This document shows, piece after piece, positions 32,762 to 50,398 of a stretch of DNA of 64,000 nucleotides (positions are counted from its first letter, which is position 1; every line of letters starts with the position of its first letter). Made by a program: the position numbers and the translations under genes. The stretch is from the NCBI RefSeq assembly GCF_013409505.1, contig NZ_JACCBN010000001.1:3534001-3598000 (forward strand), read 5' to 3'. The notes under the pieces are model-generated. The model was not told where the DNA came from, made no database searches, and saw only the letters and a program-made list of their open reading frames with translations. The stretch is from Actinomycetospora corticicola (lineage in GTDB: Bacteria > Actinomycetota > Actinomycetes > Mycobacteriales > Pseudonocardiaceae).

Positions 32762-34549
32762 ATGAGCACCCGGTCCACGGCGATCGCCCGAGGCGTCGCG
32801 ATCCAGGTGCTCGCCAAGTTCTCGGCGCTGCCGCTGTCGATGGTCACCCTCGGCATCGCCACCCGCTACCTCGGCGAGGGCGGGTACGGCGTCCTCGCCG
32901 CGGCGGTCGTCTTCGCGCAGACCTTCGAGGCCTTCACCGAGCTCGGCCTGGGCACCATCATCGTGCGCCGCGTGGCGGGCCTCGGCGGGAACCTCGAGCG
33001 CCTCGTCGGGATGAACATCTCCTTCTCGACGGTGTACGCGCTCCCGTTGGCGATCATCGCCGCGATCGCGGGCATCGGCGTCTACTGGGGCGACTACGAG
33101 CAGCAGGCCGCGGTCTGCGTCCTGGCCGTCGGACTGATCTTCACGACGGTCTCGTCCTGCTACGAACCGGTCTTCGACGTCAAGGTCCGGTACTCCTCCG
33201 CCGCGTCGGCGGAGTTCTTCTCCCGGGTGCTGACCCTCTCGGCGGCCGCCTCCGTCGCCTACTTCGACTGGGGTCTGCTCGCCATGTGCGCGGTGCAGAT
33301 CATCCCCCAGGCGCTGCGTCTGGTGATCCAGTGGTGGGGCGCGCGCCGGCTGACCCAGCTGAGCTGGGTGGTCGACTGGCCCGAGATGTGGAAGCTGCTC
33401 AAGGAGGCCTTCCCGCTCACCGTCATCTCGATCATCGCGGTGCTCTACTGGCGCGCGGACGGCCTGCTGCTGTCGATCCTCGGCACGTCCGAACAGATCG
33501 GTGGGTACTACGCCGCCCTGCAGATCGCGTTCACGCTCACGCTGATCTCGCAGGTGTTCGAGCGCTCCGTGCTCTCGACGATCAACGAGACCTACAACTC
33601 CGATCGGGCCCGCTTCGCCCGCGCCGTCGACCAGGGCTACCGGTTCCTGCTGCTCATGGGTTTCCCGATCGCGGTGATCGGGTGGCCGCTGGCGCAGCGG
33701 ATGGCCGACCTCGTGGGCGGCTCGAACGGCGTCGGCGCGTTCGCCGGTCCGCCCCTGCAGTTCTTCTTCATCGCCGTGGCCATGACGTTCCTGTCGGCGA
33801 TCGTCTCCGACGGGCTCATCGCCGCCCACGAGCAGCGCTACCTGACGACGATGTCGACGATCAACCTGGTCATCAACATCGTCGGCAACATCATCCTCAT
33901 CCCGCACCTCGGCGCCGTGGCGTGCGGGATCATGCTGATCGTCACCGAGACGATCGGGGTGCTCGCCTCGCAGTGGCGGCTGCGCCGCCACGGCGTGCAC
34001 CCGCTGCCGTTCGCCTACCTGGCCCGGCTCGTCCCCGCCGGCCTGCTCGCCCTCGGCGCGATCTATCTGACCTACGACCTGCCGCTGCTCATCCCGCTCG
34101 CGGCGGGCGGCATCGCCTACTTCGGCGGCGCGCTGCTCGTCGGGGCGATCCCGCCCGCGATGCGCAACGCCCTGCTCGGCGCGCTGCGCCCGAAGAGCCT
34201 CGACCGCATGGAGGCCGAGGCCGCGGCGGAGAACGCCGACGACGGCATCGGCGCCGCGCCCTCCGCGCCGACGGTCGAGCCGCGGATCGACCCGGCCGGC
34301 GTGGGCCTGGACGCGGCGACCACCGTGCTGCCCGGCATGTCGCGGGTGCCCGAGGGTCGCAGCGCCCTCGACGCCGAGACCGCCCAGATGCGCCCGACGG
34401 TCGCCGCCGGCACCCGCAGCGTCCCCCGCCGGGACCTCGCCGACATCACCGACGTGCCCACCATGGAGCTCGACATGGCGGCGCTGCAGACGATCCGCAT
34501 GCGTCAGCAGGGCAAGTTCGTCGAGATGCGCGTCATCCGGAAGGGCTGA
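32762..34549 (+). CDS. Wzx-type polysaccharide flippase with cytoplasmic tail
   Basis: 595 residues. Residues 1-470 are a polysaccharide-transport membrane domain of about 14 helices (starts RGVAIQVLAKFSALPLSMVT, contains YWRADGLLLSILG and INLVINIVGNIILIPHL). It moves the lipid-linked repeat unit across the membrane for polymerisation. About 120 additional residues follow, acidic and Pro/Thr-rich, predicted cytoplasmic; ordinary Wzx proteins lack this. TVLPGM and PTMEL in the tail are threonine-rich and might be phosphorylated, which is speculation. This is the second flippase in the window, after the fused one at 8700. Confidence 0.9.
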   Translation: MSTRSTAIARGVAIQVLAKFSALPLSMVTLGIATRYLGEGGYGVLAAAVVFAQTFEAFTELGLGTIIVRRVAGLGGNLERLVGMNISFSTVYALPLAIIAAIAGIGVYWGDYEQQAAVCVLAVGLIFTTVSSCYEPVFDVKVRYSSAASAEFFSRVLTLSAAASVAYFDWGLLAMCAVQIIPQALRLVIQWWGARRLTQLSWVVDWPEMWKLLKEAFPLTVISIIAVLYWRADGLLLSILGTSEQIGGYYAALQIAFTLTLISQVFERSVLSTINETYNSDRARFARAVDQGYRFLLLMGFPIAVIGWPLAQRMADLVGGSNGVGAFAGPPLQFFFIAVAMTFLSAIVSDGLIAAHEQRYLTTMSTINLVINIVGNIILIPHLGAVACGIMLIVTETIGVLASQWRLRRHGVHPLPFAYLARLVPAGLLALGAIYLTYDLPLLIPLAAGGIAYFGGALLVGAIPPAMRNALLGALRPKSLDRMEAEAAAENADDGIGAAPSAPTVEPRIDPAGVGLDAATTVLPGMSRVPEGRSALDAETAQMRPTVAAGTRSVPRRDLADITDVPTMELDMAALQTIRMRQQGKFVEMRVIRKG

Positions 34550-34636
34550 CCGGGGCGGGGGCGGGGTCACTCCCGGTGTCGTGCCACGATCGCCGTGTCC
34601 GGTTCGGGGAGTGGACGGCGAAGGAGTCATCGGGTC

Positions 34637-36622
34637 GTGTCGGGTCGTGAGCTGGCGGTCCTGATCGTGTCGTACCGGCGGGCCGACCTGCTGGACCGGG
34701 CGCTGCGCAGCGTCGAGAAGCACCTCCCGGACGCGCCGGTGTACGTGTGGGACAACGCGTCGTCGGGCTCGGACGAGGTCCGCGCGCTGGCGGGGACCTG
34801 GCCGCAGGTGCACTGGACCTTCTCGGCGTCCAACCTCGGCTACATCGCGGCGATGAACCGGCTCGCGGCGCAGTGCCCGGACGCCGACATGCTGCACCTC
34901 AATCCCGACGCCGAGCTCATCGGTCCGCTGACCGCGGCCCGGGCGGCCCTCGCGGAGCCGCGCGTCGCCGCCGTCTCCCCGACCGTGCTCGACCCCGAGG
35001 GCCGCGAGCGCCCCTGGGATGTCGCGCACCGCGAGCAGAGCGTGCTGCGGAACCTGCTCAACGCCGCCGGCTACGCGAAGCGGCTCCGGGAGCACCCGCG
35101 CCTGGCCGGGCTCTCGGACCTCTACCCCGAGACGCCGCACGACGTCGACGGCTACATGGCGGGCTGCTGCCTGCTCCTGTCCCGCGACGCGTGGAACGCC
35201 CTGGGACCCTTCGACGAGCGCTTCTTCGTCTACGGCGAGGACGCCACCTGGCAGCCCGCGGCCCGCCGCGCGGGATGGACGCTCAAGCTGGTCGACGACG
35301 ACGGGCCGCAGGTGCGGCACGCCGCGGCGGGCACCCAGACCGGCGACCCGCTCGCCTCGCAGCGTGGGGTCGACCTGCTGCGGGCCGCCCAGGTGATGGC
35401 GCTCGGCAACGCGGGCAACCGCGGGCCGGGCACGGTCTTCTCGCTGGGCACCGCGGTGCTCGACCGCGTGCAGCGCTCCAAGCGCACCGACCGCCGTCGT
35501 CGCCGGATCGCCCTGACCGAGCGCGCGGCCGGGCGGCCCGGCGTCGTGGTGACGACGAACGACCTCGACCTCGGCGGGGCCGAGCGGCAGCGGGTGCTGC
35601 TGGCCAACGCGCTCGCGGCACGCGGCCACCCGGTGACGATGGTGTGCCTGCAGGGCCTCGGGCTCTACACCGCCGAGCTCGACCCGCGGGTGCGGCTCGC
35701 GTTCGTCCCGTGGTGGCAGCCGACGGTGGAGGTCGCGGGCGACGAGGCCGTCGTCGTCGGCGGGGTCACCAACACCGAGGTCGCCTTCGCCCGGGCATGG
35801 CGGGCGCTCGGGCGCGTGTCCGGGCAGGAGCGGCGCTGGATGCCCGCGACGCACGACCCGGCGCGGCTCGACCGGGCCACCTACTCCGACACGCTCGCGA
35901 GCAGCCTGCGCACCGCCGACGGGCTGCTGGTGCTCTCCGCGCAGCACCACGTCGACCTGACCCGACACCAGGCGCTCACCGACGTCGTCATGGCCGCCCC
36001 GAACGGCATCCCGACCGCCGACCCGCTGCCGTTCCGCGCGACCGGCACCGCGCCGGTCCGGTTCGCCATGCTGACCCGGGTCGTCGAGTACAAGAACCCG
36101 CTGCTGCTCATCGAGGCGCTCGCCGCCACCGGGCGTGACGACTGGACGCTCGACGTCTTCGGCGACGGCCCGGACAAGGCCCGGCTCGAGGCGCGGACGC
36201 CCGCGGCGCTGCGCGACCGGGTGCGCTGGCGCGGGGCGGTGTCCGGCCCGGACGCGGCGTTCGCCGAGACCGACGTGCTCTGCGTCCCCAGCGACTTCGA
36301 GGCGTTCCCGCTGGTGATGGTGGAGGCGATGACCCGGGGCGTGCCGGTGATGGCCTCGGCCAGCGGCACGGTGCCGGAGATGCTCGACGACGGCGCCGCC
36401 GGAGTCGTGGTCGCCCCGGCGACCGTCCAGGCCTGGACCGCGGCGCTGATGACCGCGCTGGCGGACCGCGACCGGCTCGCCGCCCTCGGCGCGGCCGGGC
36501 GGGAGCGGGCGCTCGCGCGCTACACCGACGCCGCGATGGCCGACGCCTACCAGCGGGCGTTCGCCCGGCTGTTCGGCCGGCCGGTCCCCGGTGGCCCGAC
36601 CGAGCCGGCGGAGCTGCTGTGA
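34637..36622 (+). CDS. Bifunctional GT2-GT4 glycosyltransferase
   Basis: 661 residues with two enzyme domains. The first (about 1-270) is GT2: VLIVSYRRADLLDRALRSVE, NLGYIAAMNRL, LNPDAELIG, and the ED motif in YGEDATW. The second (about 310-645) is GT4: VVTTNDLDLGGAERQRV, APNGIP, LTRVVEYKNPLLLIEAL and FEAFPLVMVEAM. It likely adds two consecutive sugars. GTG 34637 is ten bases from AAGGAG. Its stop overlaps the next GTG (GTGA), coupling it to the following GT4. Confidence 0.88.
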   Translation: MSGRELAVLIVSYRRADLLDRALRSVEKHLPDAPVYVWDNASSGSDEVRALAGTWPQVHWTFSASNLGYIAAMNRLAAQCPDADMLHLNPDAELIGPLTAARAALAEPRVAAVSPTVLDPEGRERPWDVAHREQSVLRNLLNAAGYAKRLREHPRLAGLSDLYPETPHDVDGYMAGCCLLLSRDAWNALGPFDERFFVYGEDATWQPAARRAGWTLKLVDDDGPQVRHAAAGTQTGDPLASQRGVDLLRAAQVMALGNAGNRGPGTVFSLGTAVLDRVQRSKRTDRRRRRIALTERAAGRPGVVVTTNDLDLGGAERQRVLLANALAARGHPVTMVCLQGLGLYTAELDPRVRLAFVPWWQPTVEVAGDEAVVVGGVTNTEVAFARAWRALGRVSGQERRWMPATHDPARLDRATYSDTLASSLRTADGLLVLSAQHHVDLTRHQALTDVVMAAPNGIPTADPLPFRATGTAPVRFAMLTRVVEYKNPLLLIEALAATGRDDWTLDVFGDGPDKARLEARTPAALRDRVRWRGAVSGPDAAFAETDVLCVPSDFEAFPLVMVEAMTRGVPVMASASGTVPEMLDDGAAGVVVAPATVQAWTAALMTALADRDRLAALGAAGRERALARYTDAAMADAYQRAFARLFGRPVPGGPTEPAELL

Positions 36623-37689
36623 AGGTCCTCTGGCTGTCCCCCTGGCTGCGCACGCTCACGCGCGTGCAGGTCGACGCCCTCACCACGGCCGGGCACGAGT
36701 GCCTGGTGGTGACCACCGACCAGCACTACGAGAAGGTCGCCGCGCGGTCCGACGAGCGGGTCCTCGACCCGGCGATCAAGGACCCGCGCACGCTCCCCGC
36801 CCTCGCGCGGGTGACGGCGGAGGCCCGCCGGTTCGGGCCCGACGTCGTGGTCTCCGAGCTCATGCACGACCCCCGGTGGCTGCCGATGACCCGGCTCGCG
36901 CCGCTGGTGCAGGTGGTCCACGACGACCGCCCCCACGACGCGACCGAGGAACGGCCCTGGCACCAGCGCGCGGTGCTCGACCACCAGACCCGCTCGGCGG
37001 CGGCCGTCGTCGCGCCGAGCGCGCACGTGGCGGCGGTGCTGTCGGCGCGGTTCGGGCGCCGGATCGACGTGGTGCCGGTGACCTCCGACGTCCCCGAGGC
37101 GGCGCTGCCCCCCGTGCCCGTGCCTGCCTCGGAGCGGCGGGACTTCGTGCTGCTCGGTCGGATGTCCCCGTACAAGAACGTCGAGGTGGCGCTGCGGGCG
37201 TGGGCGGCGCACACCGCGTCCCCGGCCCACCGGGGCGACCGGCTGCTGCTGCTCGGGAACGGTCCGCTGTCCGAGCTCGACCTGCCGGAGCACGTCGAAT
37301 GGCGGCGTGAGCACTTCTCCTACGCCGACGTCCTGCCCGACCTGGCGCGCGCCAAGGGGTCCCTCGCGCACTACCGGCTCGCGACCCAGAGCGGCGTCCA
37401 GGTGCTCTCGATGCAACTGGGCGTCCCGACGATCGTCTCCGACTCCGGAGGCCTCCCCGAGTTCGCCCCGCCGTCGCTGCCGCCGCTGCCGATCGACGAC
37501 GTCGCCGGTCTGACCGCCGTGTTCGGTCGCCTCGCCGACCCCGCCGTGGCCGCCGAGGTCGGCGCGGCCGCCCGCGCCCACTACCTGGCGCACTTCTCCG
37601 CCGACCGTGCCGCCGAGGGGTGGGCGACCGTGTTCGCCCGGGTGTCGGCGGCCGCCGGTTCCGAGCGAAGGGCCCCCTCGGTCGGGTAG
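36619..37689 (+). CDS. GT4 glycosyltransferase
   Basis: 356 residues. GT4-like features are MKVLWLSPWLRTLTRVQ at the start, APSAHVAAVLS, LLGRMSPYKNVEVALRA and GVQVLSMQLGVPTIVSDSGG. The usual E-x7-E glutamate near the donor site is not evident (SGVQVLSMQ), so catalytic detail may differ. GTGA overlap with the fused glycosyltransferase upstream; the transcript ends at the 37799-37842 hairpin. Confidence 0.83.
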   Translation: MKVLWLSPWLRTLTRVQVDALTTAGHECLVVTTDQHYEKVAARSDERVLDPAIKDPRTLPALARVTAEARRFGPDVVVSELMHDPRWLPMTRLAPLVQVVHDDRPHDATEERPWHQRAVLDHQTRSAAAVVAPSAHVAAVLSARFGRRIDVVPVTSDVPEAALPPVPVPASERRDFVLLGRMSPYKNVEVALRAWAAHTASPAHRGDRLLLLGNGPLSELDLPEHVEWRREHFSYADVLPDLARAKGSLAHYRLATQSGVQVLSMQLGVPTIVSDSGGLPEFAPPSLPPLPIDDVAGLTAVFGRLADPAVAAEVGAAARAHYLAHFSADRAAEGWATVFARVSAAAGSERRAPSVG

Positions 37690-37853: not shown

Positions 37854-40211
37854 TCAGTCGCGCGAACCCCCGCGATCGGCGTCGCCGGAGGTGGTCGACG
37901 CGACGCGGTTCGGCGTCGCGTCGGGCCGGGGCCGGGGCCGGGGCGTGGGGCTCGGACCACCCTTGCGCCGCATGTCGACGGCCACGGTGTCGGCGTCGAG
38001 CCCGCCCGAGCGGGCCGGGGTGTGCCCACCGGGTGCCACGCTCGGGGCCGGCGACGGCGAGGACGTCGACGACGGGCTCTTCGGCTTGATCGACACCGGC
38101 TTGCCGGGCGCGGGCCGTCGAGGCGTGGGCGAGGACGATGAGGACGACGACGGCGAGGTGCCGACCGTCGTCGTCGGGGCGTCCGCCTCCGGGGCACTGG
38201 GCTTCGGCGCGGATCCCGAGCCGTTCGCGGCCGGAGCGGGCTTCGGACCCGACCCTGCCGCGGCGGCGCCGGCCTGCCCGTTCACGGCACTCCCGTTGGC
38301 CGCCGGCGCGGGCTTCGGCGCCGCACCGCCGCCCGGACCGGAGGACCCCTTCGCGCCGGCGGGAGCAGGGCTCCCCGAGGACGGTGCGGCACCGCTCTTC
38401 GCGGCGCCGGGGTTCTGGGCCGGACCCGGGGTCGGGCCGCCCTGCTTCGGCGCAGCCTGCGGAGGACCGGACTGCGGCGTCTGGCCCCGGGCGCCGTTCT
38501 GCTGCTGCCCCTGCGGGGCATTCTGCTGACCGCCCTGCGGCGCCTGACCCTTCGCGCCGTTCTGCTGCTGGCTCTGCGGGGTGCCCTGCTGCTGACCGCC
38601 CTGGGGCGCCTGCCCCTTGGCCCCGTTCTGCTGCTGGCCACCCTGCGGGGCGTTCTGCTGGCCACCCTGCGGCGCCTGGCTCTTCGCGCCGTTCTGCTGC
38701 TGGCCCTTCGGGCCGTTCTGCTGAGCGGCCGGCGACGGCTTCGGCCCTGCGCCGTTCGGCCCGGGGGTCGCACCGGGCTTCGGCGCACCGGGACCGGACG
38801 GTGTCTGACCACCGCGGCCGGCCTGACCGTTGGCGCCGTTGGCGGGCCCGGCGTTCTTGGCACCGCCGCCCGCGGACCCGGCCGCCGCACCCGCTGCCGT
38901 GGCACCGCCGGGCGAGGGCTTGGACGGCGAGGGCTTCGACGGTGACTGCGGACCGGGACCCGGCCCGGGGCGCCCGTTCTGGCCGGACTGCGCCGAACCG
39001 TTCTGCTGCGCGGGGCCGGAGGGCGACGGACCACCCGCGGAGGGCTTCTGTCCGGGACCGGCCGAGGGCTTCGAGGGCGACTGCGGACCGGAGCCCGGGG
39101 AACCACCGGGACCGGACGACGACGCGGCCTTCGCCGCCGCCGCACCGGCGGCAGCCCCCGCGGCACCGGCGGCGACGGCACCGGCCTTGCCGGGACCGCT
39201 GCCCTCACCCGTGCCGGAGGACCCGGCCCCGGAGGACCCGGCCGAGGTGCCCGAGGTCCCGCCGGACGAGCTGCCCGACGGCTTGCCGTCGGCAGCGGCC
39301 GCGGCCGGCTTCGCCGCCCCGGCGCCGGCACCGGACTCGCCGCCCTGCACCCGCTGGGTGGCCTCGGACGACCCGGGGCCGGCGCCACGGGCGGCGGCGA
39401 GCTGCGCCGCGGAGACCGGGGTGGTCGGGGTCGGGTCGACCGCCGGCTGCGGCGCGGGCGGACCCGACGGTCGCGGCGGCGGGGGCAGGGGCCGACCGGG
39501 CGGCGGGTAGTAGCCGGGCGGAGGACCGAGCGCGGGGTTCGCCCCGGTCGGCGGGCCCATCATCGGGGGCCGGGCGCCGTCGGGGTCGCTGGACACCCAC
39601 GCGAGGACCCGGTTCCCCGTGCGGCGCACGTACTGCGAGCCGTAGAGGACCACGCCGATCAGCACGAGCAGGAGCCCGGCGATCGCGCCGCCCGCCACGC
39701 GCAGCACGGAGCTGGACTGGCTCTGCGTCGGGGTGGACGGGTCGCCGGTGACCTGCGTGGTGATGCGTGGCGGCTGACCCGGGGCCGGCGTCTCGAGGAC
39801 CTCGACGGCCTGGGTGAAGGACTGGGTGACCGCCCGGGCGGACCGGACGGCGTCGTCGGGGGTGGCCCCCTGCACGTCGATCGACAGGACGGTCGTGTCG
39901 CTCCCCGCGTTGGCCGTGACCCGCGAGGCGAGGTCCGGCTCGGAGATCCCGAGCTGCTGGGCGGCCGGGCCGAGCACCTGGTCGCTCGTCACGAACTCCG
40001 CGTACGTCGACATCCGCTGGTTGACGTACTGGTTCGCGTTGTAGACCTCGTCGGCGTCCCCACCCCCGCCTCCGGAGACGAGGACCTGGGACGCGGAGGT
40101 GTACCCCTGCCCCGAGACCCGGAGGTCCACGACGAGACCCACCACGGCACCGAGCACGGCACCGAGCACGAGCACCCACCACGCCTTGCGTAGCGCTGAC
40201 GTCACGGTCAT
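37854..40211 (-). CDS. Wzz-like polysaccharide co-polymerase with very long disordered tail
   Basis: 785 residues. Residues 1-215 form a chain-length-determinant domain: transmembrane near 10-30 (WWVLVLGAVLGAVVGLVV), an extracytoplasmic part with YTSASQVLV and NQRMSTYAEF, and a second transmembrane near 190-212. The remaining 560 residues are almost entirely Pro, Gly, Ala, Ser, Gln, Lys and Asn, with a QQNGAKGQAPQGG-type repeat. The tail would face the cytoplasm. It has no kinase motif, and no tyrosine-rich cluster is seen. ATG 40211 has GGAGGAG upstream; GTG 40223 overlaps the preceding stop and is the alternative. Regulates polymer length with the Wzz-Wzy fusion upstream. Confidence 0.82.
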   Translation of the reverse strand: MTVTSALRKAWWVLVLGAVLGAVVGLVVDLRVSGQGYTSASQVLVSGGGGGDADEVYNANQYVNQRMSTYAEFVTSDQVLGPAAQQLGISEPDLASRVTANAGSDTTVLSIDVQGATPDDAVRSARAVTQSFTQAVEVLETPAPGQPPRITTQVTGDPSTPTQSQSSSVLRVAGGAIAGLLLVLIGVVLYGSQYVRRTGNRVLAWVSSDPDGARPPMMGPPTGANPALGPPPGYYPPPGRPLPPPPRPSGPPAPQPAVDPTPTTPVSAAQLAAARGAGPGSSEATQRVQGGESGAGAGAAKPAAAAADGKPSGSSSGGTSGTSAGSSGAGSSGTGEGSGPGKAGAVAAGAAGAAAGAAAAKAASSSGPGGSPGSGPQSPSKPSAGPGQKPSAGGPSPSGPAQQNGSAQSGQNGRPGPGPGPQSPSKPSPSKPSPGGATAAGAAAGSAGGGAKNAGPANGANGQAGRGGQTPSGPGAPKPGATPGPNGAGPKPSPAAQQNGPKGQQQNGAKSQAPQGGQQNAPQGGQQQNGAKGQAPQGGQQQGTPQSQQQNGAKGQAPQGGQQNAPQGQQQNGARGQTPQSGPPQAAPKQGGPTPGPAQNPGAAKSGAAPSSGSPAPAGAKGSSGPGGGAAPKPAPAANGSAVNGQAGAAAAGSGPKPAPAANGSGSAPKPSAPEADAPTTTVGTSPSSSSSSSPTPRRPAPGKPVSIKPKSPSSTSSPSPAPSVAPGGHTPARSGGLDADTVAVDMRRKGGPSPTPRPRPRPDATPNRVASTTSGDADRGGSRD
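38490..38730 (-). repeat. Gln/Asn/Gly-rich repeat block within the Wzz-like tail
   Basis: Imperfect units reading QQNGAKGQAPQGG and QQNAPQG recur about six times, with DNA units around GTTCTGCTG and CCCTGCGG on the plus strand. The unit number may vary between strains by replication slippage. Confidence 0.75.
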
Positions 40212-40219
40212 CGGTGTGC

Positions 40220-42517
40220 TCACTCCTCCATGGTGCCTGCGGGGACGGCAGGACGTCGGGGGGGACCCGGCGGACGCATCGGTCCGGCGCCCGGCGGACG
40301 CATCGGTCCCGCGCCCATCGGGGGCCCGGGCCGGCGCGGTGGGAAGGGCGGCCGGGTCGGCCAGGGCGACCACGTGGCGAACGCCGACAGCGCCGCCATG
40401 AGGGTGACCGTGGTGATGATCGCGGGTCGGTCGACGAGCATCGTCTGCAGGCTGGACTGCGCCGCGAGGCACGCCAGGCCCATCCCGACGACCACGACCA
40501 TCGGGGCGCCGGGCGATCGCCGCCGCCAGGACAGCAGCACCGTCGAGAGGATCCGGGTGCCCGCGAAGGCGTAGGCGAACAGGCCCAGCACCCCCATGTA
40601 CAGCCAGATCCGCAGGTACTGGTTGTGGATGTACGGGCGCGGGTCGACGTACGGCCGGCTCAGGTCGTTGTTGTACTGCGGCAGCTCCCCGCCGTAGTAC
40701 TGCCCGACGCCGACCCCGAAGAAGGGCTGGCGCTCGAGCGTGGCGTAGGCGGCGGCGTTCTCGCGCAGCCGGTCGGGGAGGCTGTCCTCGCCGTAGGCCT
40801 GCCCGGTGACGACGCTCGTGGCGCGCAGCGCGATGGCCTTCGCCTGCCCACCGGCCAGACCGGTGAGCGCGACGCTGAGCCCGATGGCCCCGACGACGAC
40901 GAGCACCGCGGCGCGGCGCACCAGGCCCTTGGGGCCGTGCGTCACGGCCGCGACCGCCACGACGAGCAGGATCAGCGGGGCCCAGGTCGAACGGTTGAAG
41001 CTCGCGGCCTGGTGCAGCACGCCGATGACGACGAGCCCGATCCACAGCCAGCGCGGCCGGCGCGGCATCAGGGCCGAGAGCAGCAGGATCAGCAGCGGCG
41101 CCCACATGTCGAGTGTGGGACCGGAGAGCCGGGCGACGTCGGAGGTGGCCGACCCCGTGATGACCGAGGTGCGCTCGTCCACGAGGAGCCGCGACCACCC
41201 GGCCACGGAGGCGACCAGCACGATCGAGCTGCAGACCCCGGCGATCGACAGCATCACCGCGATCAGCTGGTGCGGGCGCCGGGCGAAGGCGAAGTACACC
41301 GGGAAGAACGCCGCGACCATGAGCAGGGCGCGGTAGTTGTCGATCATCAGGCTGAACGCCCCGCCGAGCGCCAGCGCGGCGACGGCGCCGACCGTGGCGG
41401 CGACCAGGATCGCGATCACCGGCCACGTGAGCACCGGCCGGGGCGAGCGGGCGATCCCCCGGCCGCGCAGCAGCAGCACGAAGGCGAGCACGAGCGAGAC
41501 CTCGAGCACCGTCGGCGTCACCGGGCCGAGCTTGATCAGGTCGACCTTCTCCGGGAACACGCCGACGCCGGTGAACAGCAGCGCCGCCGAGGACCACCGG
41601 GGGTCGGCCTTCTTCCACGTCCACACCGCGGCCGCGAGGACCGGGATCAACGGGAAGATCGCGAGCCCCGTCAGGCCGTAGCCCGCGATCGACAACGCCG
41701 CGATCCCCGCCGTCACCTTGCCGACCGGCGAGCGCAGACCGGTGATGATCAGGTCGCGCAGCGCCTCGTGCATCACCGCCTGGTTCAGCTCGACCATGCG
41801 CCGGCGGGACCGGATGGTGAACGGGGCGAGGTCGCGCGACCAGCGTCCGGGCCGCAGCAGGGAGCACGCGAGCAGCGACAGGATGAACCCGCCGACCGCG
41901 CCGAGGATCGCCCACCAGCGGGCCTCCTCGACGCCGTGGTCGGTGGCGGGCCCGCCAGGGCTCACGACCCGCGCGGTCACCTTGGAGTTCGCCGAGCCGG
42001 GGTAGCGCTCGCTGCCGACCACCACGTCGGCGAGGGCCTGCGCCGCGGTGCTCGCGTCCGCCGCGACGGTCGCCTCGTCGTCGGAGGTGACCGTGACCTC
42101 GAGGATCTCGGTGGCCGTGAGGTGCTTGGACGAGATGGAGACGGTCGCCGGGTCGAACGGGGTGCTGCCGGGCCGCGCACCGATCTCGGCGGCCCGCCGG
42201 GCGACGGCCTCGCTGCTGCCGAGCGTCTCCCAGGTGGTCAGCCGGTCCTGGATGTAGCGCGAGCCCCGGGCGATGTTCTGGTCGGTCTCCATCGTCGAGT
42301 TGAAGACCACCTCGGAGGTGCTCTGCCAGCGCCCGACCGAGGCGAACACCCCGACGAAGGTGATCGCGCCCGTGAGCAGCGTCGAGAGCACGACGACGGC
42401 GGCGGCGACGCGGAGATGGGGGCTGCTGCGCCGGGGCCGCGTCGGGCCGGGCCGCTGCTGCGGGACCCGGGGCCCGGGCGCGGCGCCCGCTGCCCGGTGG
42501 GCCTCGACTGCCGTCAT
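40220..42517 (-). CDS. Wzz-Wzy fusion: chain-length domain joined to O-antigen polymerase/ligase
   Basis: 765 residues. Residues about 36-225 are Wzz-like: transmembrane VVVLSTLLTGAITFVGVF, a periplasm-type domain with STSEVVFNS and YPGSANSKVTARVV, and a second transmembrane AILGAVGGFILSLLACSLL. Residues about 260-730 are an O-antigen ligase/polymerase-like membrane domain with 10-12 helices and the Wzy_C-type block near VGVGQYYGGELPQYNND and IHNQYLRIWLYMG. The C-terminus is Pro/Arg/Gly-rich. These two activities are normally separate partners in polymerisation, so the fusion would fix their ratio. ATG 42517. Confidence 0.85.
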   Translation of the reverse strand: MTAVEAHRAAGAAPGPRVPQQRPGPTRPRRSSPHLRVAAAVVVLSTLLTGAITFVGVFASVGRWQSTSEVVFNSTMETDQNIARGSRYIQDRLTTWETLGSSEAVARRAAEIGARPGSTPFDPATVSISSKHLTATEILEVTVTSDDEATVAADASTAAQALADVVVGSERYPGSANSKVTARVVSPGGPATDHGVEEARWWAILGAVGGFILSLLACSLLRPGRWSRDLAPFTIRSRRRMVELNQAVMHEALRDLIITGLRSPVGKVTAGIAALSIAGYGLTGLAIFPLIPVLAAAVWTWKKADPRWSSAALLFTGVGVFPEKVDLIKLGPVTPTVLEVSLVLAFVLLLRGRGIARSPRPVLTWPVIAILVAATVGAVAALALGGAFSLMIDNYRALLMVAAFFPVYFAFARRPHQLIAVMLSIAGVCSSIVLVASVAGWSRLLVDERTSVITGSATSDVARLSGPTLDMWAPLLILLLSALMPRRPRWLWIGLVVIGVLHQAASFNRSTWAPLILLVVAVAAVTHGPKGLVRRAAVLVVVGAIGLSVALTGLAGGQAKAIALRATSVVTGQAYGEDSLPDRLRENAAAYATLERQPFFGVGVGQYYGGELPQYNNDLSRPYVDPRPYIHNQYLRIWLYMGVLGLFAYAFAGTRILSTVLLSWRRRSPGAPMVVVVGMGLACLAAQSSLQTMLVDRPAIITTVTLMAALSAFATWSPWPTRPPFPPRRPGPPMGAGPMRPPGAGPMRPPGPPRRPAVPAGTMEE

Positions 42518-42734: not shown

Positions 42735-43895
42735 TCAGCTCCGCGGCTCCGCCACGCGGACGGCCGGGTCCACGACGACCCACCGGCCGCCCGCCGCCTC
42801 GACCTCCGGGATGCGGTCGCGCATCTCCTCGAGCAGGTCGGTGACGAAGAGGACCACCTCGTCGGGCCGTCGCCCCGCGACGTCCGCCGCGGCCACGATG
42901 GGCACCGGCACCCCCGGGAACCGGCGGCCCTGCTTGCCGGGCGACCCGTCGGCGACGGCGGGCAGCAGGTCCGGCCCGATCCGGGCCCGGTTGAGCAGCG
43001 GCACGGCCCGCGACGCCGCGGCGTAGCCGAGGACCGAGCGGCCCGCGTCCCGCGCGGCGGTGAGGTGCTCGGCGAGCGCGTCGGCGCTCGCGGCCGTCGC
43101 GCCCTCGAGGGTCCCGACGACGGCGGGGTCCAGCACGCCCGCCGCGGTCTCGGCCTCGACGAGCGCCGACACCGACGCCGGGTCGGCCGGGCCGCCCACG
43201 CCCCGACGACGCGCGGCGAGCAGCACCGTCCCGCCGTAGAGGTCGAAGCGGAACGCGTGCGTGGCCTCGAACCCGATCTCCTCGAGCATGCGCACCAGCA
43301 CCGGCGTCGAGTAGTAGGCGAAGTGCCCGTGCCGCAACGCGTTCCACCCGCCGTCGGCGACGATCGCGGCGAGCGTGTGGAACTGCAGCAGCAGCGTCCC
43401 GCCGGGCGCCACCGCGGCGGCCCGGCGCCCGAGGCCGGCGGCCTGGTCCGCGTCGTGCATGAGCCCGAAGCAGTCGATCACCAGGTCCGCGCCCACGCCC
43501 TCGGGCACCGGGGACAGCCCGACGGCGTCGAGCAGGTCCAGCCACGACCCGCCGTGCGGACTGCCGAACTCGGTCACCGTCGTCCGCGCCGTGCCGTCCG
43601 GCGCGTCCAGCAGCCCCGCCGCCCGCACCCGGGACACGGCGTCGCGGGCCTGGTCGACCATCGCCTGCGGTTCGGCGCCCCGCGGCTCCTCGGGGGTGGT
43701 CGGGTCCTCGGCGAGGTTCGCCAGGCCGCATCCGGAGCACAGCCACATCCGCAGCGGGTGGACCGGGTCGGGCCCCGGGTCGTCGACGGCCGGGAAGTGG
43801 TCGGCCGCGGGCTGGTCGCCGAGGTCGAGCACCAGGGTGCCCTCGGTGGAGCCGCACCAGCGGCAGGTGACGGTGGCGGAGACCTCGCGGGTCAC
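42735..43895 (-). CDS. Sugar C-methyltransferase-like protein (TylC3 family), degenerate SAM region
   Basis: 386 residues. N-terminal zinc-type cysteines CRWCG and CSGCGL with LDLGDQPAADHF are typical of the TylC3/NovU NDP-4-keto-sugar C-methyltransferases, and the C-terminal LGYAAASRAVPLLNRA domain is also conserved. In the middle, the usual SAM glycine motif (E-x-GxNxG-type) is not obvious and the catalytic HEHF block reads RHGHFAYY. It may have altered or lost methyltransferase activity. GTG 43895 behind AGGAAGGA. Divergent from the RmlC-like gene. Confidence 0.75.
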   Translation of the reverse strand: MTREVSATVTCRWCGSTEGTLVLDLGDQPAADHFPAVDDPGPDPVHPLRMWLCSGCGLANLAEDPTTPEEPRGAEPQAMVDQARDAVSRVRAAGLLDAPDGTARTTVTEFGSPHGGSWLDLLDAVGLSPVPEGVGADLVIDCFGLMHDADQAAGLGRRAAAVAPGGTLLLQFHTLAAIVADGGWNALRHGHFAYYSTPVLVRMLEEIGFEATHAFRFDLYGGTVLLAARRRGVGGPADPASVSALVEAETAAGVLDPAVVGTLEGATAASADALAEHLTAARDAGRSVLGYAAASRAVPLLNRARIGPDLLPAVADGSPGKQGRRFPGVPVPIVAAADVAGRRPDEVVLFVTDLLEEMRDRIPEVEAAGGRWVVVDPAVRVAEPRS

Positions 43896-43945
43896 GGGGG
43901 GTCCTTCCTGACGGCGGGTCGATGCGTGCTGGGAGGGTGGTGGCC

Positions 43946-44485
43946 ATGGAGGTTCGCACGAGCTCGATCGACGGTGTCCTGGTGTTCGTCCCCACGCCGC
44001 ACACCGACGACCGGGGCTTCTTCACCCGCACGTTCGACACCGCGATCGGCGCCGAGCACGGCGTCGACCTCGGGGCCCTGGCGCAGGACAGCCAGTCGCG
44101 GTCCCGCGCGGGCACGATCCGCGGGATGCACGGGCGGCGCGGGGCGGGCGAGGCGAAGCTGGTGCGGGTGGCGCACGGGGCGGTGCACGACGTCCTCGTC
44201 GACGCCCGCCCGCACTCCCCCACGTTCGGCGTCGTCGCGAGCTTCCGGCTCGACGACGTCGACCACCACCACCTCTACGTGCCGGCCGGCCTGCTGCACG
44301 GCTTCCAGGCCATCAGCGACGCCGACGTCTGCTACCGCATCGACCGGCCGCACGCGCCCGGTGAGGACCTCGGGGTGGCCCACGACGACCCCGACCTGGC
44401 CATCACCTGGCCGGTCGAGGTCACCGCGATCTCCGAGCGCGACCGGACGGCCGGCTCGTGGAAGGACCTGGTGGCGACCCTCTAG
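43946..44485 (+). CDS. dTDP-4-dehydrorhamnose 3,5-epimerase-like protein
   Basis: 179 residues, RmlC cupin family: GVLVFVPTPHTDDRGFFTRT, AGTIRGMHGRRG (the catalytic His motif, GxH), VPAGLLHGFQAISDADVCY. It epimerises C3 and/or C5 of an NDP-4-keto-6-deoxy sugar. The other rhamnose genes (rmlABD) are absent here, so it probably serves the CDP- or dTDP-deoxysugar route of the neighbouring genes. ATG 43946 is nine bases after GGGAGG. The stop is seven bases from the convergent epimerase gene. Confidence 0.87.
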   Translation: MEVRTSSIDGVLVFVPTPHTDDRGFFTRTFDTAIGAEHGVDLGALAQDSQSRSRAGTIRGMHGRRGAGEAKLVRVAHGAVHDVLVDARPHSPTFGVVASFRLDDVDHHHLYVPAGLLHGFQAISDADVCYRIDRPHAPGEDLGVAHDDPDLAITWPVEVTAISERDRTAGSWKDLVATL

Positions 44486-44492
44486 ACCAGCT

Positions 44493-45518
44493 CTAGACGG
44501 GCCGCAGCGTCGCGTCGAGCGTCCCGGCCTCCTGCCGCGCGTGCAGCACGGCGAGGCGGGTGAAGCGACGGTCGAAGGTCTCCTGGGTGAGCCCACGCGC
44601 CCGGTACTCGCGCAGCAGCTCGGCGGCCCCGTCGGCCACCGACCACGCCGCACGGAACTCCGGCAGCTCCTTCTCGATCCGCGAGAAGTCGACGCGGTAG
44701 GAGCGCGGGTCGCCGCCGGTCTCGCCGGTGACGATCAGCTCCGCCTCGGGCACGGCGACCTTCACGGCCTCGGCGATGTCGCGGACCTGCACGTTGTTGT
44801 CGGTGCGCCCGACGTTGAAGGCCCGGGCGCGCACGACCTCGGCCGGGGCCTCCATCGCGGCGATCGCGGCGGCGACGATGTCACGGCCGTGGCACAGCGG
44901 ACGCCACGGCGTGCCGTCGCTCATCACGAGGATGCGCCCGGAGAGCACGGCGTGACCGACGAGGTTGTTCAGCACGATGTCGGCGCGCAGGCGCGGCGAG
45001 AAGCCGAACGCGGTCGCGTTGCGCATGGACACCGGCACGAACTCGTCCGACGCCAGGTCCACCAGGTCGGACTCGACGCGCACCTTGGACTCGGCGTAGG
45101 GGGTCACCGGCTTCATCGGCGCCTCCTCGTCGAGGACGTCGGCGGTGCCGGAGGCGCCGTACACCGAGCAGGTCGACGCGTAGACGAACCGGCCGACCCC
45201 GGCCTCCTTGGCCAGGCGGGCCAGCCGCGTCGAGGCGTGGTGGTTGATGTCGTAGGTGTGCTCCGGGGCCAGCGAGCCCAGCGGGTCGTTCGACAGCGCC
45301 GCGAGGTGGATGACGGCGTCGAAGCCCTCCAGCTGCTCGACGGTGACGTCGCGCAGGTCGACGGCGAGCGCCGGCGGGTCGGGCTGCTCCAGGTCCCCGA
45401 GGATGCAGTCGGCGTACAGCCCGGAGTCGAGGCCGGTGACCTCGTGGCCCGCCGCGGCGAGCATCGGGGAGGCCAGGGTCCCCAGGTAGCCCTGGTGGCC
45501 GGTCAGCAGGACGCGCAC
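44493..45518 (-). CDS. NDP-sugar epimerase/dehydratase, extended SDR family
   Basis: 341 residues. NAD motif TGHQGYLG, then VIHLAALSNDPLG, STCSVYGASG and the catalytic YAESK; the C-terminal half recognises a nucleotide sugar (FNVGRTDNNVQVRDIAEAV). Sister enzymes accompany glucose-1-phosphate cytidylyltransferase and TylC3-type methyltransferases in deoxysugar loci. GTG 45518 has CGGAG nine bases before. Together with the three genes upstream on this strand it forms the sugar-biosynthesis block. Confidence 0.85.
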   Translation of the reverse strand: MRVLLTGHQGYLGTLASPMLAAAGHEVTGLDSGLYADCILGDLEQPDPPALAVDLRDVTVEQLEGFDAVIHLAALSNDPLGSLAPEHTYDINHHASTRLARLAKEAGVGRFVYASTCSVYGASGTADVLDEEAPMKPVTPYAESKVRVESDLVDLASDEFVPVSMRNATAFGFSPRLRADIVLNNLVGHAVLSGRILVMSDGTPWRPLCHGRDIVAAAIAAMEAPAEVVRARAFNVGRTDNNVQVRDIAEAVKVAVPEAELIVTGETGGDPRSYRVDFSRIEKELPEFRAAWSVADGAAELLREYRARGLTQETFDRRFTRLAVLHARQEAGTLDATLRPV

Positions 45519-45541
45519 GTGCAACAGCTCCGTTCGGTGTT

Positions 45542-46183
45542 CTACACACCCACCAGCAGGCGGGTCGGGTGGAAGCCCTCGGCGTAGCGGACGCCGGCCT
45601 GCACCCCGCGGATCCGCGCGAGGCCGCGGAAGGCCTCGTCGTCGAACCAGGTGCGGCCGGTCTGCGAGGGGTAGTGCTCGTGCAGCAGCCGGATCTTGTC
45701 GTCCACGGCCTCCTGCGACAGCGGCCAGAGCACCGGCGGCTGCGCCAGGTCGGGCTCGGCCTTGAGGATCTCGTAGCCGAGCGTGGCGTGGTCCCGGAAG
45801 ACCGTGGGGACGAGCCGGGCGAGCTCGCGGTGGTCCTGGTGGTCGTCGGCGCGGTGGCCGGCGAGCACCAGATCGGGCTCGGTGGTGCGCCGGAAGGTCT
45901 CCAGCGCCTCCTTCGCCCAGTTCCAGTGGTGGGGCAGGCGCCCGTCGGGCATGTCCAGCACGGTGACCTCCAGCGAGGCCCCGGGGCAGAACGCGGCGAG
46001 CGCGGCGCGCTCCTCGGCCTCCCGCGGCGTGCCGCCCCCGGAGAGCACCAGCGCCCGCACCCGCAGGCCCGGCCGGGCGCGACACAGCGTGAGGACGGTG
46101 CCGCCCGCTCCGATCGGGATGTCGTCGCAGTGCGCGCCGAGCAGGACGAGCTCGTCGAGCCGTTCGGGGACCAGGCGCTGCAT
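45542..46183 (-). CDS. PIG-L family deacetylase
   Basis: 213 residues, LmbE-like. Zinc/catalytic motif LLGAHCDDIPIG near residue 15 and HRADDHQDHRELA near residue 110 give the expected His-Asp-Asp and His ligands. Such enzymes de-N-acetylate small sugar conjugates, which would create a free amino group on the deoxysugar. ATG 46183 directly follows the TAG of the upstream gene, so they are cotranscribed and probably coupled. Confidence 0.88.
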   Translation of the reverse strand: MQRLVPERLDELVLLGAHCDDIPIGAGGTVLTLCRARPGLRVRALVLSGGGTPREAEERAALAAFCPGASLEVTVLDMPDGRLPHHWNWAKEALETFRRTTEPDLVLAGHRADDHQDHRELARLVPTVFRDHATLGYEILKAEPDLAQPPVLWPLSQEAVDDKIRLLHEHYPSQTGRTWFDDEAFRGLARIRGVQAGVRYAEGFHPTRLLVGV

Positions 46184-47011
46184 CTAGGACTGCAGGTGCT
46201 GCGTGACGAGGCTCTCCAGCGGCGGGAGGTCCGGTCCCTGCTCCTTCTCCCAGAGCATCCACGGCCGGCTGCCGGCCCGGTAGGACGCCTCGAGCTGGTT
46301 GCGCTCCTTGAGCGTGTCCGCCGGGAGCCAGAAGCCCTCGTACGGGTAGCCCATCAGCTTGCCCTCGGCGGCCAGCGCGGTGCACGCGTCGCCCACCAGG
46401 TCCCCGTTCTCCGGGATGCGGTCGATCACCGACGGCCGCAGCACGAAGTAGCCGCCGTTCTCCCGCACGCCCATGTCGGTGACGGGGTGGATCGAGGTGA
46501 TCCGGTCCTCGTCGTCGGACTCGACGATGTGGAACACGGCTTGCGGCAGCACCGCGAGCAGCGCCGCCTCGGCGTCGGAGTCGGAGAACCGCTTGACCAT
46601 CTGGTCGAGCGGGGCGTCGGTCAGCACGTCGGCGTAGTTCGCGAGGAACATCTCGTCGCCGTCGACCAGGTGACGCACCCGGCGCAGGCGCTCACCGATC
46701 GGCGACTCCAGGCCGGTGTGGACGAAGTGGATCGTCCAGTCGGCGATGTCGGAGCCGCCGAGTTCGATCGCGCCCTCCCGCAGGACGAAGTCGTTCGACT
46801 CCGTCTCGCGGTAGTTGAGGAAGTAGTCCTTGATGTGGTGCGCCCCGTAGCCCAGGCACAGGATGAACTCCTTGTGCCCGAAGTGGGCGTAGTAGCGCAT
46901 CACGTGCCAGATCAGCGGGCGCGGGCCGACCATCTGCATCGGCTTGGGGACGTCGGAGTCCCCATCCCGCATCCGCATGCCGAAACCGCCGCAGAACAGG
47001 ACGACCTTCAC
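46184..47011 (-). CDS. rfbF: Glucose-1-phosphate cytidylyltransferase
   Basis: 275 residues. VVLFCGGFGMRMRDGD and VPKPMQMVG form the nucleotidyltransferase signature; LCLGYGAHHIKDYFLNY and FLANYADVLTD are typical of RfbF/DdhA, which makes CDP-glucose from CTP and glucose-1-phosphate. This is the first step to CDP-3,6-dideoxy and branched sugars. A CDP-glucose 4,6-dehydratase, the usual next enzyme, is not seen in the window. The stop abuts the PIG-L start. Confidence 0.92.
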   Translation of the reverse strand: MKVVLFCGGFGMRMRDGDSDVPKPMQMVGPRPLIWHVMRYYAHFGHKEFILCLGYGAHHIKDYFLNYRETESNDFVLREGAIELGGSDIADWTIHFVHTGLESPIGERLRRVRHLVDGDEMFLANYADVLTDAPLDQMVKRFSDSDAEAALLAVLPQAVFHIVESDDEDRITSIHPVTDMGVRENGGYFVLRPSVIDRIPENGDLVGDACTALAAEGKLMGYPYEGFWLPADTLKERNQLEASYRAGSRPWMLWEKEQGPDLPPLESLVTQHLQS

Positions 47012-47036: not shown

Positions 47037-48293
47037 TCAGGCGGGCGAGCTGCCGGGCTCCACGACCTCGAGGGCCGGGATCGGGAAGACGAGCTTCCCG
47101 CCCCACTCGGCCACCGGCGCCAGCTGCGCCGTGATCTCGTCGCGGAGGTTCCACGGCAGGACGAGCACGTAGTCGGGCCGGTCGGCGTCGATGCGCTCCG
47201 GCGGGTGGATCGGGATCCGCGTGCCGGGCGTGTACCGCCCGTGCTTGTAGGGGTTCCGGTCCACCGTGTAGGCGAGCAGGTCCGGACGGATGCCGCAGTA
47301 GTTCAGCAGGGTGTTGCCCTTGCCGGGCGCCCCGTAGCCGACCACGGTCTTCCCGGCATCGGCCGCCTCGATGAGGAAGCGCATCAGGTCGTTGCGGATG
47401 CGCGAGACCTCGCGGGCGAACCCGGCGTGGCCCTCGACGGTGTCCAGGCCGGCCTTGGCCTCGTCGGCCAGGACCTTCCCGACGGCGGGGGTGCGTCCGG
47501 CCCCCAGCTCGGTCGGCCGGGCCCAGAGCCGGATCGACCCGCCGTGGGTGGGGACCAGTTCGACGTCGACGAGGTCCAGGCCGCCGCTGGCCAGGGCCCT
47601 GATGGCCGTGCCGACGGTGTAGTACTGGAAGTGCTCGTGGTAGATCGTGTCGAACTGCCGGTAGGCCACGAGGGTCAGCAGGTGCTGCACCTCGATCGAC
47701 ACCCACCCGTCGTCGGCCAGCATGGCCCGCAGGCCCTGCGTGAAGCCCACGACGTCGGGGATGTGCGCGTAGACGTTGTTCGCCACGACGAGGTCGGCCG
47801 GGCCGTGCTCGGCCCGCACCGCCGCGCCGGTCTCCGGCGAGAGGAACGCCGTGACGGTCGGGACGCCCTTGTCGCGGGCCGCCTGGCCCACGTTGACGCT
47901 GGGCTCGACGCCCACCGCGCGCATCCCGTCGGCCACCACGTGCTGCAGCAGGTAGCCGTCGTTGGACGCCGCCTCGACCACCAGCGAGTCCTGCGTCAGC
48001 CCCGCGCGCTCGGTGGCGGCGGTGACGAAGCGGCGTGCGTGCTCGACCCACGAGGTGGAGAACGAGGAGAAGTACGCGTACTCCGTGAACGTCTCGTCGG
48101 GGTCGATCAGCGGGGGCAGCTGCACGAGCAGACACGACCGGCACACCCGCGGGTGCAGCGGGAAGGTCGGCTCCGGGCCCTCGAGCGCCTCGGCGGTGAG
48201 GAACAGCTCGCACGGCGGCGTGGCCCCGAGGTCGACGAAGCTCTCCAGCTCCGTCGAACCGCACAGGCGGCAGACCAGGGCGGGGGCCCCCAT
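47037..48293 (-). CDS. NDP-sugar C-methyltransferase, TylC3 family
   Basis: 418 residues with a complete set of family features: zinc cysteines CRLCG and CRSCLL, SAM motif VVEAASNDGYLLQ, the catalytic YHEHFQYYT and the C-terminal VVGYGAPGKGNTLLNY. It adds a methyl branch to carbon 3 of a 4-keto deoxysugar. Contrast with the degenerate paralogue at 42735. Its ATG (48293) overlaps the WcaJ stop by one base. 25 bases separate it from rfbF. Confidence 0.9.
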   Translation of the reverse strand: MGAPALVCRLCGSTELESFVDLGATPPCELFLTAEALEGPEPTFPLHPRVCRSCLLVQLPPLIDPDETFTEYAYFSSFSTSWVEHARRFVTAATERAGLTQDSLVVEAASNDGYLLQHVVADGMRAVGVEPSVNVGQAARDKGVPTVTAFLSPETGAAVRAEHGPADLVVANNVYAHIPDVVGFTQGLRAMLADDGWVSIEVQHLLTLVAYRQFDTIYHEHFQYYTVGTAIRALASGGLDLVDVELVPTHGGSIRLWARPTELGAGRTPAVGKVLADEAKAGLDTVEGHAGFAREVSRIRNDLMRFLIEAADAGKTVVGYGAPGKGNTLLNYCGIRPDLLAYTVDRNPYKHGRYTPGTRIPIHPPERIDADRPDYVLVLPWNLRDEITAQLAPVAEWGGKLVFPIPALEVVEPGSSPA

Positions 48294-49906: not shown

Positions 49907-50398
49907 GCGTTCGCCCCTGTTCTGAGCGCCGGGGTCCGGCCCTGCGGCCGTCCCTCCGTCGCCCGACGTCGATCGTCGCCCGTGCGGTGGTGGGGGTGGG
50001 CGACCGGGGGCCGCACGCACACGTCCCGTGTCCGGGCCACCCGCTCACCTCCCTCGCACGGCGTCCGCCACCGGCCGGCGGATCGGGTTCTCCACCACGA
50101 AGGACGCACGTGCCCCGGACGGGTTGCGCGCGGATCCCGCGTGAGCCATGTCATGGCACCCGGCCGCAGCTCCTGGTGGGGATCAACGAGGCCACCGGGC
50201 CGGGGTCACGGTGGGGCGATTCGCCGACGGCGGGTGGTTCCACCCGCCGTCGGGAACGGTGGGTGACCGGTATTGGGCCGTCCGGTCCGGGGCCGGTCTC
50301 CGTCCGGGTGGCTCCCCCGCCGGGTCCGGCCCGCGGCGCGGCCGCGAGGGGGACCGACCGGTCGTGTCACCATGAGCAGCGCGGGCCGCGGCCCGCGG
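49907..50398. promoter_or_regulatory. 492-bp region between the polysaccharide block and tRNA-Gln
   Basis: No gene seen. It must contain the minus-strand promoter of the WcaJ block and the plus-strand promoter of the tRNA, but no classical -35/-10 pair stands out. A strong hairpin is at 50224-50253. Confidence 0.45.
50224..50253. terminator. Orphan hairpin upstream of tRNA-Gln
   Basis: Perfect 14-bp inverted repeat CCGACGGCGGGTGG / CCACCCGCCGTCGG with a two-base loop. The arms resemble the CCCGACGACGGG repeat with one or two changes. It is far from any gene end, so it may be a barrier for read-through or a relic of the dispersed repeat. Confidence 0.5.

Follow-up and report, generated by a model that had tools for sequence, protein, structure and literature searches.

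Can a Wzy-type polymerase carry its own Wzz, and what would then be the role of a free Wzz encoded directly beside it? This question is raised by the open reading frame at 40220–42517 (minus strand) in a 64,000-nucleotide stretch of the Actinomycetospora corticicola genome (hereafter the window). A first-pass annotation had read the frame as a Wzz-like domain followed by Wzy and had proposed that the fusion fixes the two at a 1:1 ratio. Our best explanation overall, to which we give a probability of roughly 0.6, is a Wzz–Wzy polymerase that is coupled to a free canonical Wzz and would act with it in a mixed ring.

The fusion is a single open frame with a conserved junction

The frame runs without interruption from 42517 to 40220 and encodes 765 amino acids. 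Its GC content at the three codon positions (0.69/0.55/0.97) follows the pattern of the real genes in the window. The protein consists of a Wzz-type domain (residues ∼36–225, 41843..42412), a 46-residue linker (residues 222–267, 41717..41854), and the membrane part of the Wzy polymerase as delimited by hydropathy (residues 268–712, 40382..41716), all encoded on the minus strand. By composition, the linker is positively charged (10 lysines and arginines, four aspartates and glutamates). Hydropathy and the positive-inside rule, from which we derive the orientation, predict it to be cytoplasmic.

A search with the fusion protein returned at least 33 relatives, some at 55–62% and five of them partial (P0013, P0014, and P0032–P0034), and an alignment used as the query found the same 33; in these searches, the 8000 candidates sharing most words were scored. 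The five partial relatives were excluded from the alignment of fusion proteins (A1). All 29 aligned proteins (the window protein and 28 homologues) have an intact Wzz/Wzy junction, and the junction is also intact in 14 loci from other assemblies, which makes 15 with the window. Seven of these loci lie in Actinomycetospora (71–92% identity), and seven at 39–40% identity come from Kibdelosporangium, Actinosynnema, Actinocrispum, and a record titled Rhodococcus rhodnii. There is no matching plasmid record. In the record titled Rhodococcus rhodnii NRRL B-16535 (L013), the entire cluster is Kibdelosporangium-like (compare L014), and the strain label may be wrong.

The first-pass annotation had allowed for a frameshift that, once corrected, would split the gene. 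That the high-GC window holds many spurious long frames is all that speaks for a frameshift, a mis-assembly, or another open-frame artefact joining two genes. Because the junction is identical in the 28 aligned homologues and in the 14 other assemblies, such an origin is ruled out.

The Wzy part and its cluster context

The C-terminal part of the fusion matches Wzy_C (PF04932) over residues 496–649 (40571..41032) with 46.6 bits (cut-off 31.7, E = 3.9e-12), and Pfam finds no further domain in the protein. Motifs of the HNx9GxxG type have meaning for Wzy/WaaL ligases. In the fusion, the motif occupies residues 631–645 (40583..40627), where the large outer loop ends, and His-631, Asn-632, Gly-642, and Gly-645 are invariant in all 29 aligned proteins. 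Mean hydropathy over the same sequences gives 14 helices for the whole fusion, two of them N-terminal and 12 in the Wzy part. Our own reading is ∼14 helices in the Wzy part; two broad segments would then be hairpins, bringing the fusion to 16 helices and placing the basic loops inside. The available part of PMC12004945 gives 10–14 membrane helices for O-antigen Wzy.

The surrounding genes look like a complete Wzx/Wzy set. A Wzx-type flippase (32762..34549, plus strand; Polysacc_synt_3, 80.9 bits) is followed on the same strand by a two-domain glycosyltransferase (34595..36622) and a GT4-like glycosyltransferase (36619..37689), both assigned by Pfam and synteny. Upstream of the fusion lie two C-methyltransferase-like sugar enzymes (42735..43895, minus strand, Methyltransf_13/14; and 47037..48293, minus strand, Pfam), an RmlC-like sugar epimerase (43922..44485, plus strand; dTDP_sugar_isom, 167.2 bits, with TIGR01221 below its cut-off), and an NAD-dependent sugar epimerase/dehydratase (44493..45548, minus strand, Pfam). 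They are accompanied by a syntenic frame that we read as PIG-L-type deacetylase-like (45542..46183, minus strand; TIGR04001, 52 bits, below cut-off) and by a sugar-1-phosphate nucleotidyltransferase resembling glucose-1-phosphate cytidylyltransferase (46184..47011, minus strand; TIGR02623, 188 bits, below cut-off; NTP_transferase, 23.5 bits, over cut-off). A priming polyprenyl glycosylphosphotransferase (48293..50020, minus strand) matches Bac_transf and, with 390 bits and over cut-off, TIGR03025. The cluster is syntenic across 14 loci in records of Actinomycetospora, Kibdelosporangium, Actinosynnema, and Actinocrispum, with gaps that are due to gene picking.

Some of these loci contain further genes. 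A GH26 glycoside hydrolase lies beside the cluster's glycosyltransferases in L012 (11853–13115; assigned by Pfam in this locus only), and similarly placed frames occur in L013–L018. Several of the L012–L018 clusters also hold a further glycosyltransferase; neither gene was seen at this place in Actinomycetospora.

The genome has four Wzy_C matches, and the one within the window is the fusion, which is therefore the only Wzy_C polymerase candidate there. From the cluster context we infer that the protein very probably is a polymerase, acting on lipid-linked repeat units, rather than a ligase. A ligase or oligosaccharyltransferase would agree with the databases, where relatives are named O-antigen ligase, and with the breadth of Wzy_C, which spans ligases as well as polymerases. 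Such a function is nonetheless improbable for a protein that is the sole Wzy_C match in the window, adjoins Wzx, the priming transferase, and Wzz, and contains no other Pfam domain.

The N-terminal domain is a Wzz homologue missed by Pfam

The N-terminal part has the layout of a Wzz-type protein by hydropathy, with a helix at residues 37–55, ∼147 residues outside (56–202), and a second helix at 203–221. The window sequence by itself does not reach the curated cut-off of PF02706, and searches of Pfam, NCBIfam, and PDB sequences returned no Wzz match for it. Only one of the 15 fused N-terminal parts weakly matches Wzz in Pfam (E = 0.0095), and a PDB search with their alignment yielded unrelated matches, the best being chain T32-15-1 (E = 0.026). 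Profiles were therefore built here. The canonical set comprises 32 actinomycete Wzz proteins collected via PF02706 from 61 genomes of the order (39 matching) and from the genome itself; a Wzz row that was out of register (L139) was removed ahead of the alignment.

When compared by hhalign, the 15 fused N termini (A2) scored 98.5 against the 15 adjacent Wzz proteins (A3) and 98.8 against the canonical set, each over 183 columns. The match does not depend on the membrane helices. After their removal, A2 still scored 97.8 against canonical Wzz (raw score 78.2), whereas 100 column shuffles averaged 11.5 and did not exceed 17.4, which was also the score of the reversed set. The inter-helix part alone gave a raw score of 68.7 against the adjacent Wzz proteins (200 column shuffles: mean 11.6, maximum 19.8; reversed 21.4). 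In hmmsearch, the canonical profile found residues 20–218 of the window protein with 43.5 bits (E = 1e-13, 82 proteins searched); the profile of the adjacent Wzz proteins found residues 27–231 with 38.4 bits. These comparisons speak against the possibility, allowed for in the first pass, that the N-terminal part is unrelated to Wzz. They also split the outcome of the domain search suggested there: Wzy_C exceeds its cut-off, whereas PF02706 misses the N-terminal part, which the actinomycete Wzz profiles find. Judged by its profile matches, the fused domain is a Wzz homologue that is no member of PF02706, and with the 765-residue open frame and the Wzy_C match it is nearly certain that one protein combines a Wzz-like domain with Wzy.

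Wzz proteins typically have a proline-rich stretch before the second helix, and this stretch is missing from the 15 fused sequences. The 25 residues preceding the helix contain on average 1.7 prolines in the fused domain (n = 15), 4.5 in the adjacent Wzz proteins (n = 15), and 4.7 in canonical Wzz (n = 23, the sequences out of 32 in which the second helix is visible in the slice). The loss would fit a relaxed interaction through covalent linkage as well as a loss of Wzz function.

In the latter case, the N-terminal part would descend from Wzz but would now serve as a mere membrane anchor or docking module, leaving length regulation to the free Wzz. The missing proline-rich stretch, the lack of a Pfam match for the domain in the window, and the low identity (28–31%) between the window and non-Actinomycetospora sequences could all be read in this way. 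However, the Wzz match covers the full length of the domain including the outside part, and 24 columns are invariant across the 15 sequences. Hence, we consider reduction to an anchor quite unlikely.

A free Wzz follows the fusion in all 15 loci

The second Wzz-like protein that the first-pass annotation had placed right beside the fusion is indeed present. This free Wzz (Wzz2; 37854..40223, minus strand) is 789 residues long and consists of a canonical Wzz domain and a ∼570-residue tail rich in proline, glycine, alanine, glutamine, and serine. It matches PF02706 with 31.3 bits (cut-off 25.5) and TIGR01006 with 48 bits, the latter below cut-off, and its family scores 99.9 against canonical Wzz in hhalign. 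In PDB searches, the Wzz2 alignment retrieved only Wzc (E = 0.2), and the sequence alone gave no match.

The GTG start of Wzz2 overlaps the stop codon of the fusion by 4 nucleotides (GTGA), and this overlap is found in all 15 loci (the window and 14 others). The junction in the window (40209..40231, minus strand) also contains a GGAGGAG sequence and an in-frame ATG 8 nucleotides past the fusion stop; this GGAGGAG-TGA-ATG layout recurs in all eight Actinomycetospora loci including the window. With a free Wzz retained and coupled by overlap throughout the family, the cell is able to produce Wzz in excess of Wzy. The proposed fixed 1:1 ratio is therefore weak, the more so as a published complex has a ratio of ∼8:1 (PMC10030265, available in part).

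The tail of Wzz2 begins downstream of ∼39580 in the window and measures 503–586 residues in Actinomycetospora, or 765 in A. chiangmaiensis (L005) with its longer frame. In that locus, the Wzz2 frame (from 10274) reaches 980 residues, and its end is a different, arginine-rich stretch that may result from a frameshift in the repeat-rich region. The seven non-Actinomycetospora loci have tails of 13–31 residues only. The Wzz module is thus the core of the gene, whereas the tail is specific to one lineage and is not the basic function.

Two further Wzy genes of the A. corticicola genome sit just upstream of a separate Wzz gene with the same 4-nucleotide overlap, and their products carry no Wzz domain. 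The arrangement found here speaks against a simple merger of neighbors; more likely, Wzy has gained an additional Wzz domain. As far as gene order and profiles tell, a polymerase with a built-in version of the length regulator and a free copy next door occurs in a group of soil actinomycetes.

Wzz-like domains on other actinomycete Wzy proteins

A survey for Wzy_C covered 61 genomes from the order and gave matches in 53. The 67 loci examined (30 given, 34 with an open frame of ∼600 residues or more, shorter frames being left out, and three from the genome itself) contain 81 frames with at least eight helices, some of the loci having no such frame. HMMs built from A2 (fused N-terminal domain) and A3 (Wzz2) both match the window protein as a positive control and none of the 81 frames at E = 10; the exact N-terminal fusion family is therefore narrow. 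A phylum-wide survey covered 30 loci out of 116 genomes with a Wzy_C match.

Several survey proteins carry a helix-gap-helix module at the opposite, C-terminal end of Wzy. Against canonical Wzz, these modules score 94.2 (L027), 70.3 (L030), 89.4 (L031), and 91.2 (L088) in hhalign. The L027 type belongs to Cryptosporangium (100% match), with named relatives in Nakamurella, Microlunatus, Kocuria, and, more distantly, Mycobacterium sp. 155. A profile of 79 relatives, picked by a length of 600–730 residues from P0035–P0117 among at least 128 matches (8000 candidates scored), reaches 97.0 (raw score 71.9) against canonical Wzz, whereas 40 shuffles do not exceed 16.8. Each of the 79 covers the aligned C-terminal region with 120 residues or more; the count of 79/79 means this coverage, not 79 separate homology tests. 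The C-terminal profile scores 80.7 against the fused N-terminal family and 86.1 against Wzz2. The module of L033 scores just 4.2 against canonical Wzz yet 96.9 against the C-terminal family, and L104 from the phylum survey scores 97.3 against this family and 73.1 against canonical Wzz. A weak N-terminal case is L062, with 57.2 for canonical Wzz, 82.9 for Wzz2, and 2.2 for the fused N-terminal family. Helix-gap-helix modules on the Wzy proteins of L055, L071, and L081 were rejected for want of profile support.

Six loci of these other fusions (L153–L158) were taken at 12–15 kb. The fusion in L157 (L088 type) is immediately followed by a free Wzz (98.9), and in L158 (L104 type), the frame ending at 5171, where the fusion gene starts, has a Wzz domain (96.4). 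No other frame of at least 100 residues resembles Wzz in the 12–15-kb loci L153–L156. A free Wzz is thus close by in two of the six loci and in none of the other four, and a free partner next door is therefore not a universal need.

With the 14 additional loci of the N-terminal fusion and the C-terminal version in a larger family, the architecture sought by the first-pass annotation does recur among actinomycetes. Judged by the profile comparisons, Wzz and Wzy became coupled at both ends of Wzy and probably on more than one occasion. A family model of their own may be warranted for those Wzy_C proteins of actinomycetes whose C-terminal Wzz-like domain Pfam leaves unannotated (L153–L155, L033, and L104; P0035–P0117). 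The profile of this C-terminal domain also finds a separate 309-residue frame in L118 (frame +2; E = 5.3e-9), possibly a stand-alone relative of the domain.

A mixed ring as the preferred model

In the enterobacterial common antigen complex, WzzE and WzyE occur at ∼8:1, with WzyE in the lumen of the WzzE ring (PMC10030265, available in part). On our reading, 40220–42517 very probably encodes a Wzy-type polysaccharide polymerase that has a Wzz (polysaccharide co-polymerase) domain at its N terminus and serves one Wzx/Wzy cluster. The fused Wzz domain would fill one place in the ring, free Wzz2 would fill the remaining places around one polymerase, and the 46-residue cytoplasmic tether would hold a polymerase in every ring. 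The number of subunits in the ring (∼8:1 in the enterobacterial system), not a 1:1 ratio, would then set polymerization.

This mixed ring of one fused and several free subunits is our preferred model, although we hold it only tentatively, at somewhat less than even odds. It is supported by the retention of the free Wzz with its GTGA overlap in the 15 loci. The loss of the proline-rich stretch is counted in its favor as well, since such a loss would follow from a partial relaxation of the interaction through covalent linkage. Against the mixed ring stands the divergence of the fused domain, which, having neither a Pfam match nor the proline-rich stretch, may not join a ring.

Alternatively, the fusion could work alone at 1:1, its Wzz domains forming homo-oligomers together with several Wzy units, while Wzz2, whose tail in Actinomycetospora is long and of low complexity, serves elsewhere, for example in cell-wall contact. 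The composition and the ∼570-residue length of this tail in the window would suit such a role. In addition, within the 12-kb stretches no free Wzz accompanies the C-terminal fusions of the Cryptosporangium-type loci L153–L155 or the weak N-terminal case of L156, and G036 and G045 lack any PF02706 match at 1e-6. Within the fusion family itself, however, the free Wzz is kept and coupled in every locus, it also adjoins the fusions of L157 and L158, and the short tails outside Actinomycetospora argue against the tail as the basic function. A strict 1:1 homo-oligomer would moreover sit badly with the published complex, in which a single Wzy occupies the ring center (PMC10030265, available in part). 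We therefore regard a fusion acting on its own as unlikely.

Relation to known systems and implications

The fusion shares with WzzE–WzyE the pairing of a two-helix Wzz-type co-polymerase with a multi-helix Wzy; there, according to the available part of PMC10030265, the two are separate proteins at ∼8:1, whereas here Wzy and one Wzz domain form a single polypeptide, with a free Wzz encoded in addition. The wps clusters of Actinoplanes missouriensis likewise encode a Wzy and a Wzz protein, but these are separate, and the accessible text of PMC13390465 reports no Wzz domain on Wzy. Wzc (PCP-2a) is also a natural fusion of the Wzz module; its partner, however, is a tyrosine kinase and not a polymerase (PMC12004946, available in part), and a Pfam scan of 18 window proteins, two of which have no family at all, gives no kinase domain. 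The C-terminal Wzy–Wzz proteins of Cryptosporangium, Nakamurella, Microlunatus, and Kocuria likewise attach a Pfam-invisible Wzz-like domain to a Wzy_C polymerase, but at the opposite end, with a score of only 80.7 to the fused N-terminal family, and with no free Wzz seen in the stretches taken from L153–L155.

A natural Wzz–Wzy fusion was not found among the titles and abstract beginnings listed by a literature search, from which subscription journals and bioRxiv were mostly absent; this is not proof of absence. The available parts of PMC10030265, PMC12004946, PMC12004945, PMC13390465, PMC4594306, and PMC11340318 make no mention of one.

Control of polymerization by the co-polymerase is described as “not fully understood” in the accessible part of PMC12004946, and Wzz–Wzy complexes may dissociate during preparation (PMC10030265, available in part). 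A natural covalent Wzz–Wzy is a complex with inseparable parts, in which Wzz per Wzy can be counted, the tether can be cut, and the free partner can be deleted. Its interest lies in a loose complex turned covalent. More speculatively, the fused subunit might nucleate a ring that free Wzz completes, with one tethered polymerase each, and actinomycetes might repeatedly have built cryptic Wzz domains into either end of Wzy as a general solution missed by Pfam. Since Wzz-like domains recur at either end of Wzy, several actinomycete proteins annotated as “O-antigen ligase family” may well hide a co-polymerase domain.
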